Source of the DNA: a virus
Length of the DNA stretch: 28,647 nucleotides
Virus record (IMG/VR): IMGVR_UViG_3300021960_000371
Coordinates: 1-28,647 of that record
Strand: one strand, 5' to 3'
Position numbers and translations under genes: made by a program. Positions 6,417 through 27,906 of this stretch are shown piece by piece; positions within the stretch are counted from its first letter, which is position 1, and each line of letters opens with the position of its first letter. The notes under the pieces were generated by a model. It worked only from the letters and a program-made list of their open reading frames with translations, did not search any database and was not told the DNA's origin.

Positions 6417-8932
6417 TGATGCCACCTACCAGAATAGAGCAGCTAAATAACTTTCAGGATGCAGTACAAAGTCCTGATGGATTAGATAGACTAAGAGCTT
6501 TACAAGCTGTTGAACAAGCTTTACCTTCGTCACAAGGACTTATGGGTATGCCACAAGTACAAGCTCCTATGCCTATGGTTCCTAGACAATATGGTGGTGA
6601 AGTAGGAACTGGTGGTTTAGTAGAAGTGTTAGATGATGGTACACAAGTATTTGATAGGACAGAAGAAGGCATACTAAACAGATCTCTACATGGTGGTATG
6701 TTAGAAGGTCAAACACAAACAGCATCAGCACCTAGTAGTTTTAGTGGTGGAGCAGATGCACTAGGTACATTAGCTAGTGGTACAACAGCTCCTTCAGGTT
6801 TTACTATATCAACTGGTCAAGATAAATATGGAAATACTATTGGTGATCTTACAGGTATGCAAGATTATTATGATTTAAATTTTGCAGCTAGAGATGCAGG
6901 TCAAGATACATTTATGTATGGTGATAAATTAATGCAAGTAGATCCTGGATATTTAAGAGGTGGTGGTATTAATCCTTTTATAAGTAATAGATTACCTGCA
7001 GGTTTACAACAAGAAGTAATAGATAGACCAGATCTTTTTACAAAAGTAGATAATTTATTTAATTTAAATACAATACAAAAAAAACAAGGAGATCCAACTG
7101 ATCCAGGATTTTATTCAGAAGCACCTTATTTACCAACACAAGATTTTAGTAGAGATATATCTGGACAGTATAATAGTTATTATGAAGCTAATCAAGCAGC
7201 TAAAGAAGCAGGTTCTCCAACATTTATGTGGGGAGATAAATTAGCAAAAACAGATCCAGGATTGCTACCTGATTATGTAGGAGGTCCTAAACCTTTTATA
7301 AGTAATGCAATACCTGAAAAATATATAAGTGCAGGTGTAAATTTACCTCCAGGATGGGCTAATATGTCAGCTAATCAACTAGCTAAATATCAACCTGGAT
7401 ATAAAGATCCTAATAGAATTACTTATGGACCAGCAAAACATGGAGGTCAAGTTATAAAAAAAGAAGGTGGAGGTCAAATAGATCCTTCACAAGCAGCACA
7501 AGGTTTAGCAAGTTTTGGTAGATATGGAGATAACATATTAGTCCATATGAATCCTGAAGAACTACAAGGACTAGCATCCCTTGGTAATATAACATACAAT
7601 CCAGTAACAGGATTACCTGAAGCATTTAGTCTTAAAGGTATATTTAAAGCTGTACGTAAACTTGCACCTGTTGCATTAGCGATAGCTGCACCTTATGCTT
7701 TTCCAACTATATCATCAACAGCTTTAGGATTTGGTTTAACCACAGGAGGTGGTGCATTTTTAGGAAATCTTATAGCAGGTGCTAAACCTAAAGATGCATT
7801 AAAAGGTGCTTTATTCTCAGGATTAACTGCAGGTGTTGGATCATACTTAGGTGGTGCACCTTCTGGATTTGGTGGTAGTGGTGCTTCAAATGTAGGAACA
7901 CAAGGTTTTGCAAATACTGGTTTAGGTGGAATAAATCAAGGCGTAACTCCTAATATAGCTGGAGCAAGTTCTGCAGGTACAAATTTAACAAAAGCAAGTT
8001 TTGCAAATACTGGTTATGGTGGAATAAATAAATTGCAACCATCTTCAATAGCATCAGAATTTACATCACCACCAACAACAACAGGTTTATCAAATAGAGT
8101 TATTGATGTTCCAAAACAAAGTTTTCAATTAGCACAAACACAACCAGTACAACCAACATTTAATCCTGATATACCTACAAATATGACAATAAGAGGAGAT
8201 TCTTTAAATCAATATGTTCAAAGTCAACAACCTGTAGCAAAAGTAGCTCCTCAACAATCAATAGGTATTTTTGATAAAGGTGGATTAAGTAGTGCTAATT
8301 TAAAAAGAATAGGACAAGATATATATAAAGATTATGCTAATCCAAAAGGTATAGCTAAACTTGTGGCTATGGATTTATCAACACCTGATTATGATGTTAT
8401 GTATGCTAATGAAGCTAGAGCAAAAGAACAACAATTAAAAGATGCAGGTTATACAGTTGATACTGGTTTTGATGGTCAAGTTGTTATAAAAGATTCTTCT
8501 GGTGTAACTTTACCAAGAAACTTAACAGCATCTATGATATTAGATAGAGCATTAGGAAGAGCACCACGTACTAACTTAGTAGCACGTACAGATTATGCTA
8601 CTGCTAAACAAGGTGGATTAATAAGTTTAAAAAATGGTGGTGAATTTAGTGGTATGGTTCCAGGTAATGGACATGGTATGGAAGATAATGTTTATATGCC
8701 TATAGTAGAAAAAGAAAATGGTAGTCAAGTAGGAACATTAGCTGTATCACCTTCAGAATATGTAGTAGATAGTTATACAATGGCAGCACTTGGTAATGGC
8801 AATGCAGATGCAGGTGCTAAAGTAATGGACAGAGTTGTTAAGCATGTACGTAAGAAAGCTTATGGAGATACAGAACAACCAAATGAAATAAGTGGGTTAG
8901 AAGCTTTAAAACCCATGATGGAAAGGGTATAA
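6416..8932 (+). CDS. Large internal virion / ejection-type protein with repeats and Gly-rich hydrophobic core
   Basis: An 838-aa protein. It carries two copies of a roughly 45-residue module (about residues 151-194 and 255-301) sharing a tandem-Tyr start, TFM(Y/W)GDKL, DPG and PFISN. From about residue 419 to 480 there is an Ala/Gly-rich weakly hydrophobic stretch (ALAIAAPYAF onward) with glycine-zipper character, as expected of proteins that enter membranes during DNA ejection. FANTG(L/Y)GGIN occurs twice around 500-540. The C-terminus has VPGNGHGMEDNVYMP (starting near 748) and VSPSEYVVDSYTMAALGNGN (777-796), a motif recurring in marine phage virion proteins. It lies directly before two other giant proteins in the order expected for ejection proteins. 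Function is inferred from context and composition. Confidence 0.65.
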   Translation: MMPPTRIEQLNNFQDAVQSPDGLDRLRALQAVEQALPSSQGLMGMPQVQAPMPMVPRQYGGEVGTGGLVEVLDDGTQVFDRTEEGILNRSLHGGMLEGQTQTASAPSSFSGGADALGTLASGTTAPSGFTISTGQDKYGNTIGDLTGMQDYYDLNFAARDAGQDTFMYGDKLMQVDPGYLRGGGINPFISNRLPAGLQQEVIDRPDLFTKVDNLFNLNTIQKKQGDPTDPGFYSEAPYLPTQDFSRDISGQYNSYYEANQAAKEAGSPTFMWGDKLAKTDPGLLPDYVGGPKPFISNAIPEKYISAGVNLPPGWANMSANQLAKYQPGYKDPNRITYGPAKHGGQVIKKEGGGQIDPSQAAQGLASFGRYGDNILVHMNPEELQGLASLGNITYNPVTGLPEAFSLKGIFKAVRKLAPVALAIAAPYAFPTISSTALGFGLTTGGGAFLGNLIAGAKPKDALKGALFSGLTAGVGSYLGGAPSGFGGSGASNVGTQGFANTGLGGINQGVTPNIAGASSAGTNLTKASFANTGYGGINKLQPSSIASEFTSPPTTTGLSNRVIDVPKQSFQLAQTQPVQPTFNPDIPTNMTIRGDSLNQYVQSQQPVAKVAPQQSIGIFDKGGLSSANLKRIGQDIYKDYANPKGIAKLVAMDLSTPDYDVMYANEARAKEQQLKDAGYTVDTGFDGQVVIKDSSGVTLPRNLTASMILDRALGRAPRTNLVARTDYATAKQGGLISLKNGGEFSGMVPGNGHGMEDNVYMPIVEKENGSQVGTLAVSPSEYVVDSYTMAALGNGNADAGAKVMDRVVKHVRKKAYGDTEQPNEISGLEALKPMMERV
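6866..7318 (+). repeat. Internal duplicated module inside the 838-aa virion protein
   Basis: Nucleotides 6866-6997 and 7178-7318 encode diverged copies of one protein module. Both copies begin with two tyrosines, contain AGQDTFMYGDKL or AGSPTFMWGDKL, then a DPG(Y/L)L turn, and end in PFISN. The repeat is clear at protein level but not at DNA level, so it is an old duplication. The copies lie about 104 residues apart. Further copies may exist in relatives. Confidence 0.7.
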
Positions 8933-18443: not shown

Positions 18444-18851
18444 TTAGAACCCACATTTTTTTATAAGTTCATTTACTTTCTTTTTACCTAGTATCTTTAG
18501 TGTGTCTACTATACTAGCATCTAGTCCTTCAGGTGATACATCTACTTCTTTCTCACTCTTAGCACCTCTAATACGAGACAATAATTCTAATGCTTTGATA
18601 GCACTATTAGTATGACCATTAGCTTTAGCAAACTCATACTGTTTTTCTATTTCAGTTATTACATCTACTGAAGTCTCTAACGTATTCTCTAGTTCTTCAA
18701 TACGTTCTTTAATCTCTCCATTTTGTAGATTTCTATAGCCTTGATTGTAAGCAGATGAAGCAGCATATCCTGCAGTCTTTGCAGCTTCTGTTGCATTTCT
18801 ATGCAGGATATAAGCCTGTGCAAACTTCTCTTGTTTATCGTTAAGTGCCAT
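18444..18851 (-). CDS. terS: Terminase small subunit
   Basis: A 135-aa protein. The N-terminal half (LNDKQEKFAQAYILHRNATE, then AAKTAGY) is the helix-turn-helix DNA-recognition pattern of the Terminase_2 small-subunit family, followed by a charged helical oligomerisation region (IKERIEELENTLETSVDVI) and a C-terminal tail. It recognises the packaging site and loads DNA onto the large terminase, which is not in this window. It is the last gene of the minus-strand unit, coupled by TAATG to the gene before it, and its stop abuts the stop of the convergent plus-strand gene with no gap. The length is normal for the family. Confidence 0.85.
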   Translation of the reverse strand: MALNDKQEKFAQAYILHRNATEAAKTAGYAASSAYNQGYRNLQNGEIKERIEELENTLETSVDVITEIEKQYEFAKANGHTNSAIKALELLSRIRGAKSEKEVDVSPEGLDASIVDTLKILGKKKVNELIKKCGF

Positions 18852-19738: not shown

Positions 19739-20383
19739 TTATTCTCCTTTTATACATGTTCCTATTATACCTTTTTTTGATGTAGAAGTCAAGTATATTT
19801 TTAAATCTTTATAGTCTTCCCATACATGTTTTGCTTTATCTACCCACCACTCATGGTCAAATAAAGATACATGTACATTCTCTCCTTTATATTTACCTGT
19901 AGTAAATGTTTTTATAGCAGGTTCACAAGATACATTTATAAATACTGTTTTGTTAGCCAAACTACATATCTCTCTGATAATCCAATCTAAATCTTCTTCA
20001 GGTATATGTTCAAGTACATCAGTACATATTACTAGATCAGATTTTTTAGTAGGTAATTTATTATGTTCTGGTACACCTGGATCATATAAAAATAAATCTT
20101 CCACTCCCCACCATAGATGTAAAGGTTTGTCAAAGTTAGGTATTCTCTTTTTACTATTCATATATTTATATTGTTCTTTATAAGGATAACCTTTACCACA
20201 ACCATAATCTAAAATAGATTTACAATTATTATGTCTTATTATATCATATATATCTATAGCAAAAGGTATTAAACTTATACCTTGAAACTTACCCTCTTCT
20301 TCATGTAAATGTTTATAAGCTTCTATAAGCTCTAAATATTTTTCAGAAGGTTTAGGTTTCTTAGGCATTACATAATCATCCAT
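19739..20383 (-). CDS. Class I SAM-dependent methyltransferase
   Basis: A 214-aa protein. The start at 20383 has GAGG 9 nt upstream and overlaps the preceding stop by 8 nt; an ATG at 20422 would overlap by 47 nt and looks less likely. Motif I is SILDYGCGKG (about residues 56-65), the SAM-binding glycine loop, and DLVICTDVLEHI (116-127) is the Methyltransf_11/25-type post-motif. These are typical of small-molecule, lipid or sugar methyltransferases rather than base-specific DNA methylases, since no NPPY or PCQ motif is seen. Encoded after two glycosyltransferase genes, it probably methylates a sugar or surface glycan made by them. The substrate is unknown. Confidence 0.82.
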   Translation of the reverse strand: MDDYVMPKKPKPSEKYLELIEAYKHLHEEEGKFQGISLIPFAIDIYDIIRHNNCKSILDYGCGKGYPYKEQYKYMNSKKRIPNFDKPLHLWWGVEDLFLYDPGVPEHNKLPTKKSDLVICTDVLEHIPEEDLDWIIREICSLANKTVFINVSCEPAIKTFTTGKYKGENVHVSLFDHEWWVDKAKHVWEDYKDLKIYLTSTSKKGIIGTCIKGE

Positions 20384-22697
20384 CAAATGTTTCCTCAAAG
20401 GTTGGTTTTTTAGGTGATACATTCCATAGAGCAGTAACTAAAGTATCTTCACCATATAAATTTAAATTCATTTCCATAGGTGGATCATTAAAAGTTCTTT
20501 CACAATCTTGTGCCATAGCTAATAACTCACCAGTAGTCCAGAAGTACTGCTCACCTACACCTACCTTAAAGTATTTAGGTTTAGGTTCTTCATCTTCAGC
20601 ACCTGTAGTTTCTTTCTTTTGTTCTTCAGTAGGTTCTTCCATACAAGAATCAAAACCAAAGAGATCAAAGTTTCTAAATCCCATAGTATGCATGATACCT
20701 AGAGCTCGCATAGCAGCACACGTACCACCTGTAATAAGAGTAGCTCCTTGAGGTATACCTATATCAGGATTAAGAGTAACAGAATTATTAACCATCTTTT
20801 TATTTTGTTCTGCAGGATCACGCAATGATTCTGTAAATGCGTGCCATCCATGTATCTCTGCACCTTTATCTATTAAGTATTCAGTAACAGAAGGATCAGT
20901 CATAGATGCTACAAAGAACTTTGTTTTCTTTTCTATCTTTTTAAATAATTCTTTTCTTACTACACCATGTGTACTTACACCTGTAATAGGTCTAGGATCA
21001 AGAACAATACATGCCCAAGGTAGTATACCATTATCTACAAGTTTAGGATAAGAATGTTTAACACATACAATTTTACTATCAGGATTGTTTTTTATATGTG
21101 TTTTTAATTTATTAATATTTAAGTAAGGACCACCTGATACAAGAATAACATTACCATTATGTAATGGAAACTTACCTAACCATCTATCAATAAGTTTTAA
21201 ATTCTTTTTAATATTATCTCTAATAAAATCTTTAGGTACACAGTCTCTAGGATGTACAACTATAGGTACGTTTAATAATTTTTTAGGTAGATCAGGAAGT
21301 TTTTTATCACTTAATACAACTACTAAATGTGTATGTCCACCACCACGTACTAAATCTTGTGAAGGTATTACCCATCTACGTATACCATCTTTCTTTCCTT
21401 TAGGTAAACTTTCTACAATTTTATTTGTACCATGATATTTTTCTGGTGCATTATTTTTATCTTCATCTTCTCTAAAATAATTATCTATAACAACAACAGG
21501 ATTATGTTTTAAATTATCATAATCACTTTTAGTTGTAGCTATACTATTACCACCACCTATCAAAACAAAGTCAGCATTTAAATCATCACAATCTTTTAGT
21601 ATATCTCTGGAGTTACCTTTACCTAACTCAAATGTAAAGACTTTCTTTTTCTCCATCATCTTCTTTCTAAACTCTTGCAATCTTTTTATAACTGCAGACT
21701 TAGTATTGTGAGCTTTCAAATTAAATTCTTCAGCGTCTGTTTCAGGTGTACCATCTTCAAATAAATCAAAACCTCTATATAATATTTCATCTTGATTTTC
21801 AAATGCAGCAAGAGCCATCTCAATAGCACGACCACCATTCCAAGTACCTACTTCTATAATAGATTTAGGTTTGTACTCTCTTATAACATCAGCTAATTGT
21901 TTATATCTATTAGGTACAATATCTTGAGAGACTGTATCTTCTGATAAAGCTACTAATCTATTACCTTGATCATCCCTAATAGCTAGGTTCTTTATATTAT
22001 CTATACCTTCAAAGTGGGTAATGTAATCATTAATTTGTGGAAGATCTTGTATCTTCATACCATGAGCTTTATAAATATTTAGTAGTCTTTCAATTAAGAA
22101 AGAGTCATGCCACTCTCTATACTGTAAAAGTTCTCCTGATATATAAGCACCACGTAAGTCTCCAAGTAAATCAAGAGCAGGTCTTTTATTTAAATTAAAA
22201 GCTATGAAAGAAGTATCAAGATAAAATGTTTTATCTGGATAATGTCTAACACCTCTGTAAGCTACATCACAAGCTTCAGGTAGCATACCTAGTATATCAT
22301 TAACAACTAATCTTTTAGATGCAAGAGAGTCAGCATCAATCCATATCAACCAACCTGCATCTTTAGATTCTTCTGCTAATTCAAAAGCTTTTTCAGTTAA
22401 TGCAAAAACTTTATGTGACCATCTAAGAGAATCAAGATGCCAATTATAAGGTATAGTATTATTCTCTGTGCCATTATGTTCTTGATTAACTTTTAAAAAA
22501 TCTCTGTATTCTTCTACATCTTCTAAAGATTTTAACTTTATATCTTTTATAGAATAATTTTTAGGATCAAAGTCATGGTGATAAGCTGTAAAATTTATAG
22601 AAGGTTCCCAATTATTTTTGATAGATTTAAATAAATGATGTCCCACATCTGTATATATAGTCTCATTAAAAGACGTAACAAAATTTATTTTTGTCAT
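20376..22697 (-). CDS. Three-domain fusion: GT-A glycosyltransferase-like, methyltransferase-like, DUF115/Maf-like
   Basis: A 773-aa protein. Residues 1-240 look like a GT-A glycosyltransferase, with WLIWIDADS at 116-124 supplying a DxD-type metal site. Residues about 260-460 resemble a Rossmann methyltransferase of the Methyltransf_24 type (SIIEVGTWNGG at 279-289; the expected acidic residue in FVLIGGGNS, 377-385, is replaced by Gly). Residues about 510-760 match DUF115, the Maf/motility-accessory-factor glycosyltransferase-like family: VILVSGGPYL (517-526), GILPWACIVLDPRP (557-570), and TGGTCAAMRALG to FDLFGFDS (656-684). In bacteria Maf proteins glycosylate flagellin with nonulosonic acids. 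It shares ATGA with the GT8-like gene upstream. It probably builds or attaches a modified glycan; the acceptor is unknown. Confidence 0.72.
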   Translation of the reverse strand: MTKINFVTSFNETIYTDVGHHLFKSIKNNWEPSINFTAYHHDFDPKNYSIKDIKLKSLEDVEEYRDFLKVNQEHNGTENNTIPYNWHLDSLRWSHKVFALTEKAFELAEESKDAGWLIWIDADSLASKRLVVNDILGMLPEACDVAYRGVRHYPDKTFYLDTSFIAFNLNKRPALDLLGDLRGAYISGELLQYREWHDSFLIERLLNIYKAHGMKIQDLPQINDYITHFEGIDNIKNLAIRDDQGNRLVALSEDTVSQDIVPNRYKQLADVIREYKPKSIIEVGTWNGGRAIEMALAAFENQDEILYRGFDLFEDGTPETDAEEFNLKAHNTKSAVIKRLQEFRKKMMEKKKVFTFELGKGNSRDILKDCDDLNADFVLIGGGNSIATTKSDYDNLKHNPVVVIDNYFREDEDKNNAPEKYHGTNKIVESLPKGKKDGIRRWVIPSQDLVRGGGHTHLVVVLSDKKLPDLPKKLLNVPIVVHPRDCVPKDFIRDNIKKNLKLIDRWLGKFPLHNGNVILVSGGPYLNINKLKTHIKNNPDSKIVCVKHSYPKLVDNGILPWACIVLDPRPITGVSTHGVVRKELFKKIEKKTKFFVASMTDPSVTEYLIDKGAEIHGWHAFTESLRDPAEQNKKMVNNSVTLNPDIGIPQGATLITGGTCAAMRALGIMHTMGFRNFDLFGFDSCMEEPTEEQKKETTGAEDEEPKPKYFKVGVGEQYFWTTGELLAMAQDCERTFNDPPMEMNLNLYGEDTLVTALWNVSPKKPTFEETFDG

Positions 22698-23461
22698 ATC
22701 ATATAATCCCTATCAAATTCAATAATACCTTTCATCTTCAACCAATCAGCATCACTACACCATTCAACTGCATACTTACCTTCTATTGCTCCTCTTGGTT
22801 TCCAATCTTTAAACCAAGGACCACCTGTTGTAAAATGTACATTCTTTGCATCCATGTCTTCTGGTGAATGACCATCTAACCAATTCCATTCTTCAGGTAT
22901 TCTACCTATGTCTGCTTCTTTATCTGGCAACCAACCAAATCCATGTAACCATCTACCTGTTTGTGTATTAACTACTTTAGGAGTAAGTTGTTTATTTAAA
23001 GCATGTTCACAATTAAACATCATAAGACTTGACCAGTTCTTTCTACGATAAGGATGTTGTTCTTTACCATCCATCTTTGTAGTTTTTTCTGGTTCATATT
23101 TATGATGAACACAATATACAGGATAATAATCCATATCACATAAATCAAATAGATCATTAACGTCTGCACGTAAGTACATATCTGAATCCATAAACAAAGC
23201 TTTACCTTGATACATATTTAAAGCAGGTACTAAGAATCTACTGAAACTAAACTCTGTAGAGAAAGGTTTACCATCTATAACATCATATGGTTGACCATGT
23301 ATTAACTCAGACTTACGTGTATATATACCCATGTGTTCTAGTATATCTCTCTTTAATGGTACGATACGTATGTTCTTACCTGATATTCTTTCTATAGTAA
23401 ACTTTAAAACTTCGTATGCTGTATCTTCTTTTGGATCATATCCTATGTAAACTGTATTCAT
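22694..23461 (-). CDS. GT8-like glycosyltransferase
   Basis: A 255-aa protein with a GT-A fold signature: N-terminal NTVYIGYDPKEDTAYEV, nucleotide-binding beta-strands, STEFSFSRFLVPAL (68-81), and the metal-binding DSD at 92-94 in KALFMDSDMYLRADV. The segment NWSSLMMFNC (142-151) and a late HFTTGGPWF are also typical of this phage-encoded group. It should transfer a sugar from a nucleotide donor. GGAG lies 5 nt before the ATG, and a strong hairpin precedes it (23477-23512). It overlaps the next gene by ATGA, so the two glycosyltransferases are probably made together. Acceptor candidates are virion proteins, host LPS or another phage glycan; the sequence does not decide. Confidence 0.8.
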   Translation of the reverse strand: MNTVYIGYDPKEDTAYEVLKFTIERISGKNIRIVPLKRDILEHMGIYTRKSELIHGQPYDVIDGKPFSTEFSFSRFLVPALNMYQGKALFMDSDMYLRADVNDLFDLCDMDYYPVYCVHHKYEPEKTTKMDGKEQHPYRRKNWSSLMMFNCEHALNKQLTPKVVNTQTGRWLHGFGWLPDKEADIGRIPEEWNWLDGHSPEDMDAKNVHFTTGGPWFKDWKPRGAIEGKYAVEWCSDADWLKMKGIIEFDRDYMI

Positions 23462-23476
23462 TTTATCTCCATGTTA

Positions 23477-23512
23477 TGAGGGAGTGAAAGGAAATATAAA
23501 AACACTCCCTCA
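23477..23512. promoter_or_regulatory. Perfect 10-bp stem-loop between hsp20 and the GT8-like gene
   Basis: TGAGGGAGTG at 23477-23486 pairs with CACTCCCTCA at 23503-23512 around a 16-nt AT-rich loop. On the minus strand, where the genes lie, no U-run follows the stem, so it is not a canonical intrinsic terminator for that strand. On the plus strand CTTTT follows. It may be an mRNA processing or stability element that sets hsp20 apart from the glycosyltransferase message, or a weak terminator for stray plus-strand transcripts. Confidence 0.7.
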
Positions 23513-23520
23513 CTTTTAGG

Positions 23521-23937
23521 TTAGTGTATTGATATTTCTTTTGGTCTTTGTTCTTCAGGTATGTTATGTGTTAAACTAACACTCAATACACCATCCTCAA
23601 ACTCAGCACCTCCAACCTCTATATTCTCTGCAAGAGTAAAATCTTTAGAGAAAGATCTTCGTGCTATATTCTTATGAAGATAATCTCCATTAGAATTTTT
23701 AGAGTTAGACTCACCTTTTATAGTTAAGGTGTTGTCTTTTAACTGTATACTTAACTCGTCTTTCTTAAAACCTGCAACTGCAAGTTCTATTTTGTAGTTA
23801 CTTTCTCCTTCCTTTATGATATCATAAGGTGGATATTCGTTAGTAGTTAAGTTATTGTTGCTGTGTAGAGATACTAAGTGATCCATCAAATGATCAAACC
23901 CTATAGCATATCTATTTATATTATGAAATACACTCAT
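23521..23937 (-). CDS. hsp20: Hsp20 family small heat-shock protein (IbpA-like)
   Basis: A 138-aa protein with an alpha-crystallin domain at about residues 36-128: YPPYDI, then YKIELAVAGFKKDELSI, LTIKGE and the diagnostic DGVL (115-118). The C-terminal tail carries the oligomer-locking I-x-I motif (ISI, 135-137). It is closest in feel to the IbpA/HspH group of proteobacteria. It is an ATP-independent holdase that could protect folding of virion proteins. AAAGGA lies 6 nt before the ATG. A near-consensus sigma70 promoter 56-84 nt upstream makes it the first gene of a minus-strand unit that runs to terS. Hsp20 genes are known in cyanophages and other marine phages, so presence alone is not novel. 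Confidence 0.92.
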   Translation of the reverse strand: MSVFHNINRYAIGFDHLMDHLVSLHSNNNLTTNEYPPYDIIKEGESNYKIELAVAGFKKDELSIQLKDNTLTIKGESNSKNSNGDYLHKNIARRSFSKDFTLAENIEVGGAEFEDGVLSVSLTHNIPEEQRPKEISIH

Positions 23938-23971
23938 TTTTTATCCTTTCATTAAGCGATTAATAGAACCC

Positions 23972-24002
23972 ATTATGGCATTCTATAATGTAATTATGGC
24001 AT
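23972..24002. repeat. Direct repeat ATTATGGCAT x2 over the hsp20 promoter, 21 bp apart
   Basis: Identical 10-mers at 23972-23981 and 23993-24002 (plus-strand reading), with start-to-start spacing of 21 bp, two helical turns. One copy covers the -10 box of the minus-strand promoter; the other lies just past the expected transcription start. This geometry suits a regulator binding both copies on one DNA face. AT-richness makes some repetition expected, so the operator idea is an inference. Confidence 0.45.
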
Positions 24003-24021
24003 AGTTTACAAAAAATGTCAA
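23993..24021 (-). promoter_or_regulatory. Sigma70-type promoter for hsp20 and the downstream minus-strand unit
   Basis: On the minus strand, TTGACA (24021-24016, perfect -35) is separated by exactly 17 nt from CATAAT (23998-23993, 5/6 match to TATAAT). Transcription should begin near 23986, leaving a leader of about 50 nt before hsp20. The stop codon TGA of the DUF1289-like frame lies within the -35 box, so promoter and coding sequence are interlocked. No comparable promoter was seen elsewhere on this strand in the window. Confidence 0.75.
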
Positions 24022-26882: not shown

Positions 26883-27109
26883 TAGTCTTCTTGAGTTATT
26901 TCATCTCTAAATGTATCAACTAACATAGATGCAGCTTCTTCTGCTTCAGCAGCTAGTTTAATTTGTTTAATAAATTCATCAATAACTTGGGGATGTTCTC
27001 CTATACCAACAGGATGTTCCAAGTATATACGTGCAGTAGCTATAGCTTTATCTCTTTGAGAATGAAACTCAGCTAGTGCTGTGTTGTACATTGCTTCCTT
27101 TACTGACAT
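26882..27109 (-). CDS. Small hypothetical protein
   Basis: A 75-aa, Ala/Glu-rich, almost wholly helical protein with no Cys and no recognisable motif. Its start overlaps the end of the endonuclease gene by 10 nt and has GGAGG about 8 nt upstream; its stop shares TAATG with the next gene. The tight coupling on both sides supports a real gene in the replication/nucleotide block. Function unknown. Confidence 0.62.
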   Translation of the reverse strand: MSVKEAMYNTALAEFHSQRDKAIATARIYLEHPVGIGEHPQVIDEFIKQIKLAAEAEEAASMLVDTFRDEITQED

Positions 27110-27906
27110 TTATTTTCCTCCTTTCCTATTAATTTTACTTTAACTATATCTTTATGTTTATACATATTTATTTTTTTACCTTGCTGTATTTTATATCCTA
27201 TTTTTAAATGTCTTAAAGCTGCCCAATCATAATTATTATCTATAGCAAACCTAGATAAATTATCAACAATAATAACTTTACCACATTTAAATTCTAATTT
27301 ATGTGCACCTAAAGCATTAGAATTTTTATCTCCAATCATTTGTTCTCTAATTTTTGCTTTAACTTCTTTATTATCATAATTATTTTTTCTCATTCTTTCT
27401 TTATATTCTAAATCATTTTCTCTTTTTTTAAGAGATTTACTTTTTCTTTTTTGAACTTCAGGATTATCATGGTTTCTTTCTCTCATTTTTTTAATATGAT
27501 CTGGATCTTTATACAATTCAACAGGAGGAAAAAATTTACCACCCACATATGAATTATAAAATGCAGGTTCATCGCTACCTTCTATAGTAGAAGTAAGAAC
27601 ATTCCATTTTACTTGATAATACATTTCATAATAACGTAAACTTCTTTTGTTTTTATACTCTGCAATTACTTCAAATGTAAAATGTTCTTTACCTATCTTT
27701 TCTATATCTGCATTTAAATATTTAGATGATCCTGTATATATTTCCCATTTATGTTTTCTTTTTTTCTTACCCATAGAAAAATATTGTTTACAACCTACAT
27801 ATGCTTTAGTAGTTTTAGTATTCGTTATAAGATAAACAAACCCAAACTTATCTAGGTTAGGTACGAAAGGTTCTTCAGTACCATATCTAATCCAATGACT
27901 TACCAT
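27100..27906 (-). CDS. GIY-YIG homing-type endonuclease
   Basis: A 268-aa protein. Its N-terminal domain shows GIY-YIG features: FVYLI (23-27) and AYVG (35-38) for the GIY and YIG strands, EIYTGSSKYLNADIEK (55-70), and Glu94 in YYEMYYQ as the metal-binding Glu, with a conserved-looking Asn in FYN (118). Residues about 135-195 hold lysine-rich units (DNPEVQKRKSK, DNKEVKAKIRE, GDKNSNALG) resembling NUMOD3 DNA-binding repeats, and VDNLSRFAIDNNYDWAALRH near 213-232 resembles a NUMOD-type helix-turn-helix. It is therefore probably a free-standing mobile endonuclease inserted between the exonuclease gene (7-nt overlap) and a small gene. A host-DNA-degrading role is the alternative. Confidence 0.75.
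   Translation of the reverse strand: MVSHWIRYGTEEPFVPNLDKFGFVYLITNTKTTKAYVGCKQYFSMGKKKRKHKWEIYTGSSKYLNADIEKIGKEHFTFEVIAEYKNKRSLRYYEMYYQVKWNVLTSTIEGSDEPAFYNSYVGGKFFPPVELYKDPDHIKKMRERNHDNPEVQKRKSKSLKKRENDLEYKERMRKNNYDNKEVKAKIREQMIGDKNSNALGAHKLEFKCGKVIIVDNLSRFAIDNNYDWAALRHLKIGYKIQQGKKINMYKHKDIVKVKLIGKEENKCQ

Follow-up and report, generated by a model that had tools for sequence, protein, structure and literature searches.

Multidomain viral machines for glycan synthesis are of a known kind. In the chlorovirus PBCV-1, the protein A064R, which carries two glycosyltransferases and a methyltransferase, builds a methylated capsid glycan together with the separate methyltransferase A061L (PMC9614988). 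Maf flagellin glycosyltransferases combine a central DUF115 domain with an N-terminal degenerate Rossmann domain that shows weak methyltransferase-like motifs (PMC11339370). In the sugar O-methyltransferases MycE and ThnM1, Mg2+ is held by Asp275 and Asp304 and His278 lies in the active site (PMC9275233), a histidine serving as general base in this type of methyltransferase (PMC9539859). Here we describe a gene cassette in the 28,647-base virus record IMGVR_UViG_3300021960_000371, the whole of which we call the window. It encodes a GT8-type glycosyltransferase (P0001), a fusion of a GT-A glycosyltransferase domain, a methyltransferase fold and a DUF115 domain (P0002), and a separate S-adenosylmethionine (SAM) methyltransferase (P0003). 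The probable product of the cassette is a methylated glycan, carried either by a protein or by the cell surface, and the cassette appears to be a variant of the known viral machines in which one domain is predicted to be dead and a companion methyltransferase is present. Our literature search returned no useful paper joining DUF115 or MptE-like proteins with phage glycosylation.

A conserved fusion of three domains

The cassette consists of three overlapping genes:

22694-23461, minus strand: P0001, GT8-type glycosyltransferase of 255 amino acids (open reading frame and structure match)
20376-22697, minus strand: P0002, three-domain fusion of 773 amino acids (open reading frame, Pfam, AlphaFold model and relatives)
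19739-20422, minus strand: P0003, separate class I SAM methyltransferase of 227 amino acids (open reading frame, Pfam, phrog and motifs)

P0001 and P0002 share 4 bases; P0002 and P0003 overlap by 47 bases as called, or by 8 if P0003 begins at Met14 (position 20383), probably its start, where some homologues begin. An earlier, sequence-only reading had placed these genes here and assigned them to a GT8-like enzyme, a GT-A/methyltransferase/DUF115 fusion with a DAD motif at residues 121-123 and a separate SAM methyltransferase, and the evidence below bears out each of these assignments.

By structure, P0001 matches LgtC (Z 17.8) and glycogenin (Z 17.1). It contains a DSD motif at residues 92-94 and an HFTTGGPW motif at residues 209-216, of which D92, D94 and H209 are invariant in 22 homologues; H209 would be a metal ligand, judging from its place in the second motif. 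The fold, the DxD and the C-terminal histidine of the GT8 family are present, but the Pfam GT8 model scores 20.9 bits, under its cut-off of 24.3, and we therefore call the enzyme GT8-type rather than a Pfam GT8 member.

Sequence-profile searches of the fusion and of each of its three domains against the PDB gave no significant match, so that the fold assignments for P0002 rest on structure comparison with an AlphaFold model that drew on 32 homologues (mean predicted local distance difference test score 82.6, predicted template modelling score (pTM) 0.49). The packing of the domains is not trustworthy at this pTM. The model comprises:

21978-22697, minus strand: domain 1 (residues 1-240), GT-A glycosyltransferase domain, from its match to 4ayl
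22329-22337, minus strand: DAD metal/nucleotide motif (residues 121-123), with D121, A122 and D123 invariant in the 32 homologues
21300-21950, minus strand: domain 2 (residues 250-466), methyltransferase fold from structure matches, predicted to be catalytically dead
20418-21257, minus strand: domain 3 (residues 481-760), DUF115/MptE-like domain, from PF01973 and structure matches

In the model, domain 1 resembles the GT6 structure 4ayl (Z 14.4, residues 2-247), and domain 2 (about residues 249-466) the COMT-type O-methyltransferases COMT, TrmR, TomG and SafC (Z about 15). Domain 3, which as modelled is of a glycosyltransferase/pyrophosphotransferase fold, resembles MptE (8sd5, Z 15.7, residues 481-749). 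The profile searches proposed with the sequence-only reading recovered part of this make-up: PF01973 (DUF115/MptE-like) covers residues 494-687 of P0002 with 44.3 bits (cut-off 34.6) and matches 32 of 32 members, but the TylF and Methyltransf_24 models hit the middle domain under their cut-offs and no Pfam model covers domain 1 in a scan of P0002.

The match to MptE extends over most of domain 3 and could be taken to mean that this domain is a pterin pyrophosphokinase with MptE activity, the fusion then serving cofactor metabolism. We regard this as extremely improbable: a stand-alone HPPK protein would be expected of MptE, but in full-length relatives the domain is the third of a fusion, joined to GT-A and methyltransferase folds, with GT8 adjoining in all relatives that span that DNA, and Maf matches domain 3 too.

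The relatives were obtained by using P0002 and the divergent homologue L036 as queries against viral contigs, plus one genome contig; after duplicates had been removed by hand, 126 distinct contigs remained. The genome contig collection yielded a single relative, L150, whose contig is catalogued with a Sneathiella metagenome-assembled genome, and neither tblastn of P0002 nor blastn of the region found a match among 50,697 phage records. All three domains are present in 113 of the 126 contigs, at 99-43% identity, the remainder being mostly cut by contig ends, and GT8 lies upstream of the fusion in 111 of the 111 contigs with sufficient upstream DNA. This rules out a chance fusion or one made by a frameshift; the three parts stay together and are not separate genes in the relatives. 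In both the window's clade and a sister clade, whose members are about 43-50% identical to the window, the cassette sits between a ribonucleotide reductase (RNR) gene and terS. The best match in a viral structure library is an uncultured Caudovirales protein which, at 28% identity, appears to be related over its full length, and the architecture thus extends past this group. Pelagibacter phage Mosig has GT8 and GT-A as adjacent, unfused genes, and the pair are neighbours in 49 of 80 related contigs; the fusion therefore probably arose by joining pre-existing modules.

Loss of catalytic residues in the middle domain

Two sites distinguish the middle domains of the clades:

21546-21557, minus strand: G381-G382-G383-N384, replacing the active-site D-G-G-H (GN in 37 contigs, DH in 86, DN in 3)
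21480-21485, minus strand: D405-N406, second pair of metal ligands, which is DD in the sister clade with the intact motif (comparison of relatives)

The middle domain typically reads IDGGHSYET...FDDYF in the sister clade and IGGGNSIAT...IDNYF in the window's clade, and over both sites the contigs fall into the classes DH/DD (86), GN/DN (25), GN/DH (12) and DN/NN (3). The spacing of Asp275-x-x-His278 in MycE and ThnM1 equals that of positions 381-x-x-384, and it is motif and fold, not structures aligned residue by residue, that lead us to equate the two sites. The sister-clade domain looks intact by these motifs, and that of one member (L044) passes Methyltransf_24 with 44.9 bits (cut-off 26.3). 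The domain in the window retains the fold and the SAM motif of the TylF/Methyltransf_24 family but lacks D-x-x-H (G381, N384); having lost the metal-ligand aspartate and the general-base histidine, it is predicted to be catalytically dead throughout the window's clade. The sequence-only reading had rightly noted a missing acidic residue in this domain, and its suggestion of a dead scaffold fits the window's clade but not the sister clade. Its picture of one protein uniting all three activities is, given this dead-looking domain, probably wrong for this phage.

The residues of the SAM motif (E282, G284, W286, N287, G289, R290 and D311, N287 being read with the nearly invariant G288) are nevertheless invariant across the 32 homologues, which come from both clades. 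Within the window's clade, the ratio of nonsynonymous to synonymous substitutions (Nei-Gojobori) is 0.285 (median) for the middle domain, 0.417 for the GT-A domain and 0.222 for DUF115, values that indicate continuing purifying selection on the middle domain. Both observations would suit a middle domain that is alive with an altered, metal-independent chemistry, P0003 then methylating another position, in the way that A061L follows A064R; A061L provides the precedent for a second methyltransferase, and D405-N406 resembles the D-N pair of COMT. This explanation seems unlikely to us, since the metal-ligand aspartate and the general-base histidine are both gone in one clade and P0003 is found only there.

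P0003 itself scores 25.8 bits with Methyltransf_23, just under the cut-off of 27, matches phrog_24759 (E 7e-20), and shares with its aligned homologues the class I methyltransferase motifs DYGxGK and DVxEH. It follows the fusion in 30 of 30 judgeable dead-motif contigs and in 0 of the 79 that reach terS and carry Asp at position 381, counts that leave out 17 contigs ending too early to judge. In a tree computed without the motif columns, a single, fully supported branch sets off all dead-motif rows. This clade is deep: L150, L036, L089 and L090 are at 49-55% identity to the window, and the members with downstream DNA keep P0003.

Proposed function of the cassette

The reading that we consider moderately probable is that of a soluble phage glycan assembly line, which makes an O-methylated glycan from host sugar donors and in which methylation has moved to P0003. 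The GT8 enzyme and the GT-A domain would transfer successive sugars from nucleotide-sugars of the host; the DUF115 domain would either supply one more sugar, possibly a nonulosonic one, or join the glycan to its acceptor; and methylation would cap the product. For this last step the intact-motif clade would use the Mg-type sugar O-methyltransferase domain of the fusion; in the window's clade the dead domain would be retained as a SAM-binding scaffold, with P0003 methylating in trans. All domains of the cassette match transferase folds in the models, and both DxD motifs are invariant, which supports the compact glycan-making unit that the sequence-only reading had seen here. The donors are presumed to be the host's, because no CMP-sugar synthetase (PF02348) was found in nine related records (29-62 kb). 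In a more elaborate version, which we consider doubtful, the dead domain would serve P0003 as a platform for docking and SAM sensing, recruiting it into a split pseudoenzyme-enzyme methyltransferase, and the pair of intact and dead domains might show the origin of the degenerate N-terminal domain of Maf.

Phage glycosyltransferases can also act on DNA, and the cassette lies near genes of nucleotide metabolism (RNR, exonuclease), as would suit a role in glycosylating phage DNA through base hypermodification. Such a role is disfavoured, and in our view very unlikely, because no thymidylate-synthase-type base hydroxymethylase (PF00303) was found in those nine records, some of which are fragments; moreover, the folds match sugar and protein transferases.

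As to the acceptor, our tentative judgement is that the most likely one is a structural protein of the phage, which would receive its modification in the cytoplasm ahead of assembly, a host envelope glycan ranking next; the virion protein is slightly favoured by the parallels with A064R and Maf. Several points weigh against the proposed assembly line. The loss of the motif and the presence of P0003 map to one branch, so that the association between them, perfect as it is, reflects one change and no independent repetition: it is a strong association, not repeated proof of replacement. A second small lineage within the intact-motif clade (L069, L073 and L080) has DN/NN at the two sites with P0003 absent, which argues against a strict need for P0003. 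The pTM of 0.49 says nothing about how the domains of P0002 pack in the model. Finally, the GT8 genes of pelagimyophages have been read as serving modification of the host O-chain (PMC7029224), a view that speaks for a cassette remodelling the host envelope, with lipopolysaccharide or other surface glycans altered to block superinfection or to stop progeny sticking to debris. The fold of P0001 is closest to LgtC, a lipopolysaccharide galactosyltransferase, homologous GT8 and GT-A gene pairs occur in sugar clusters of pelagimyophages such as Mosig, and a sigma-70-like promoter (see below) would permit use from early infection. We nevertheless hold remodelling of the envelope somewhat improbable: no membrane partner of the GtrA/B type is seen in the cassette and the DUF115/Maf and A064R precedents concern protein glycosylation.

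Promoter and genomic context

Upstream of the cassette lie hsp20 and the RNR gene, and downstream two small genes annotated without function, followed by terS; the opposite strand of the window carries structural genes. The features around the cassette are:

23993-24021, minus strand: sigma-70-like promoter, TTGACA-17-CATAAT with TG preceding the -10 hexamer (agrees with the consensus at 11 of 12 positions)
23963-23986, minus strand: leader hairpin just after the promoter (predicted leader fold -7.7 kcal/mol)
23521-23937, minus strand: hsp20 small heat-shock protein gene, first behind the promoter (phrog_432, E 1.7e-42)
23476-23513, minus strand: 11-bp hairpin in the gap from hsp20 to GT8, immediately ahead of the ribosome-binding site of GT8 (gap fold -19.8 kcal/mol)
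18444-18851, minus strand: terS, downstream landmark outside the cassette (phrog_51, E 1.1e-20)

The promoter lies about 55 bases upstream of hsp20. Its pattern has a single match in the window, and 29 of 100 shuffles also yield one; it is kept at about the same position in relatives, some intact-motif contigs included, and the extended pattern occurs once per locus in all 34 loci that have it. Among contigs spanning RNR and GT8, hsp20 is present in 23 of 29 with the dead motif versus 3 of 47 with the intact motif, and in relatives that lack it (L011-L013 and L016) the promoter stands directly before GT8. The late use that the sequence-only reading deduced from an hsp20 promoter is therefore unsupported, the promoter being sigma-70-like and hsp20 absent in many relatives, although a conserved promoter-like site does exist.

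Both hairpins were predicted by folding single sequences. A leader hairpin similar to the window's is found in many hsp20-bearing relatives, and much of the window's clade has a strong hairpin before GT8, the stem of which differs in sequence among L002, L019, L025 and L027 at the same place; such hairpins might be mRNA stabilisers or processing sites. An Rfam scan of the window gave no match.

The nearest named phages are distant marine podoviruses, the pelagiphages HTVC023P, HTVC027P and HTVC115P and the Roseobacter phages CRP-901/902, through two window proteins at about 30-36% identity. Some relatives carry a GTA_holin_3TM gene between the fusion and terS (L095, 8301-8705, plus strand; that of L150, 11069-11473, plus strand, looks alike), and none was seen there in the window. 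At 27100-27906 on the minus strand, the window encodes a 268-amino-acid protein whose first half matches phrog_447 (labelled NAD synthetase) and most of whose length matches homing endonuclease families; several relatives have a protein of the same type in a version of about 137-144 amino acids. In L155, a relative from the intact-motif clade, an open reading frame at 7277-8107 (plus strand) resembles, judging by its sequence, a cytosine-C5 DNA methyltransferase.

Comparison with known systems

P0002 shares PF01973 with Maf, a family characterised by transfer of nonulosonic acid to flagellin, and Maf 5mu5 aligns with model residues 248-760 (Z 18.2, but with a root-mean-square deviation of 14.7 across two domains). 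It differs in having a GT-A domain in front, no C-terminal helical domain and no flagellin context. The Maf/PseD model NF050051 scores 17.3 bits against a cut-off of 670, and DUF115 reaches about residue 760 of 773, leaving no room for the helical bundle; membership in Maf is thereby ruled out, and the Maf label given from sequence was too strong.

The middle domain has the fold of the Mg-dependent sugar O-methyltransferases TylF, MycE and NovP, and in the sister clade also their D-x-x-H ... DD pattern; unlike these enzymes, the window's clade has G and N for the metal-ligand aspartate and the base histidine.

In the sugar cluster of Mosig EXVC030M, the GT8 homologue (42%) is Mosig_00188, and its neighbour Mosig_00189 is homologous to domain 1 but stands alone (hmmsearch E 1.2e-23). 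There the genes are unfused, the neighbouring methyltransferases lack clear homology to the middle domain or to P0003, and no DUF115 was found in the cluster. The same cluster (L082, 2833-8667, minus strand) also contains a putative sulfotransferase, and two of its genes annotated without function, Mosig_00185 and Mosig_00187, resemble each other (about 28% alike).

The nearest functional parallel is with A064R and A061L: here too, a viral multidomain protein would join two glycosyltransferase domains and a methyltransferase domain, with a separate methyltransferase besides. We regard this as a likeness in kind and claim no homology; A064R has another order and other families (GT34-like, a new glycosyltransferase, methyltransferase), contains no DUF115, acts in a eukaryotic host and has all three domains active. 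If our reading is true, methylated glycans of these uncultured marine podophages are phage-made, by means of a fused enzyme that would be a counterpart among bacterial viruses to the chlorovirus A064R, and the sister clades form a natural before/after pair in which a catalytic domain dies, stays, and passes its job to a separate gene.

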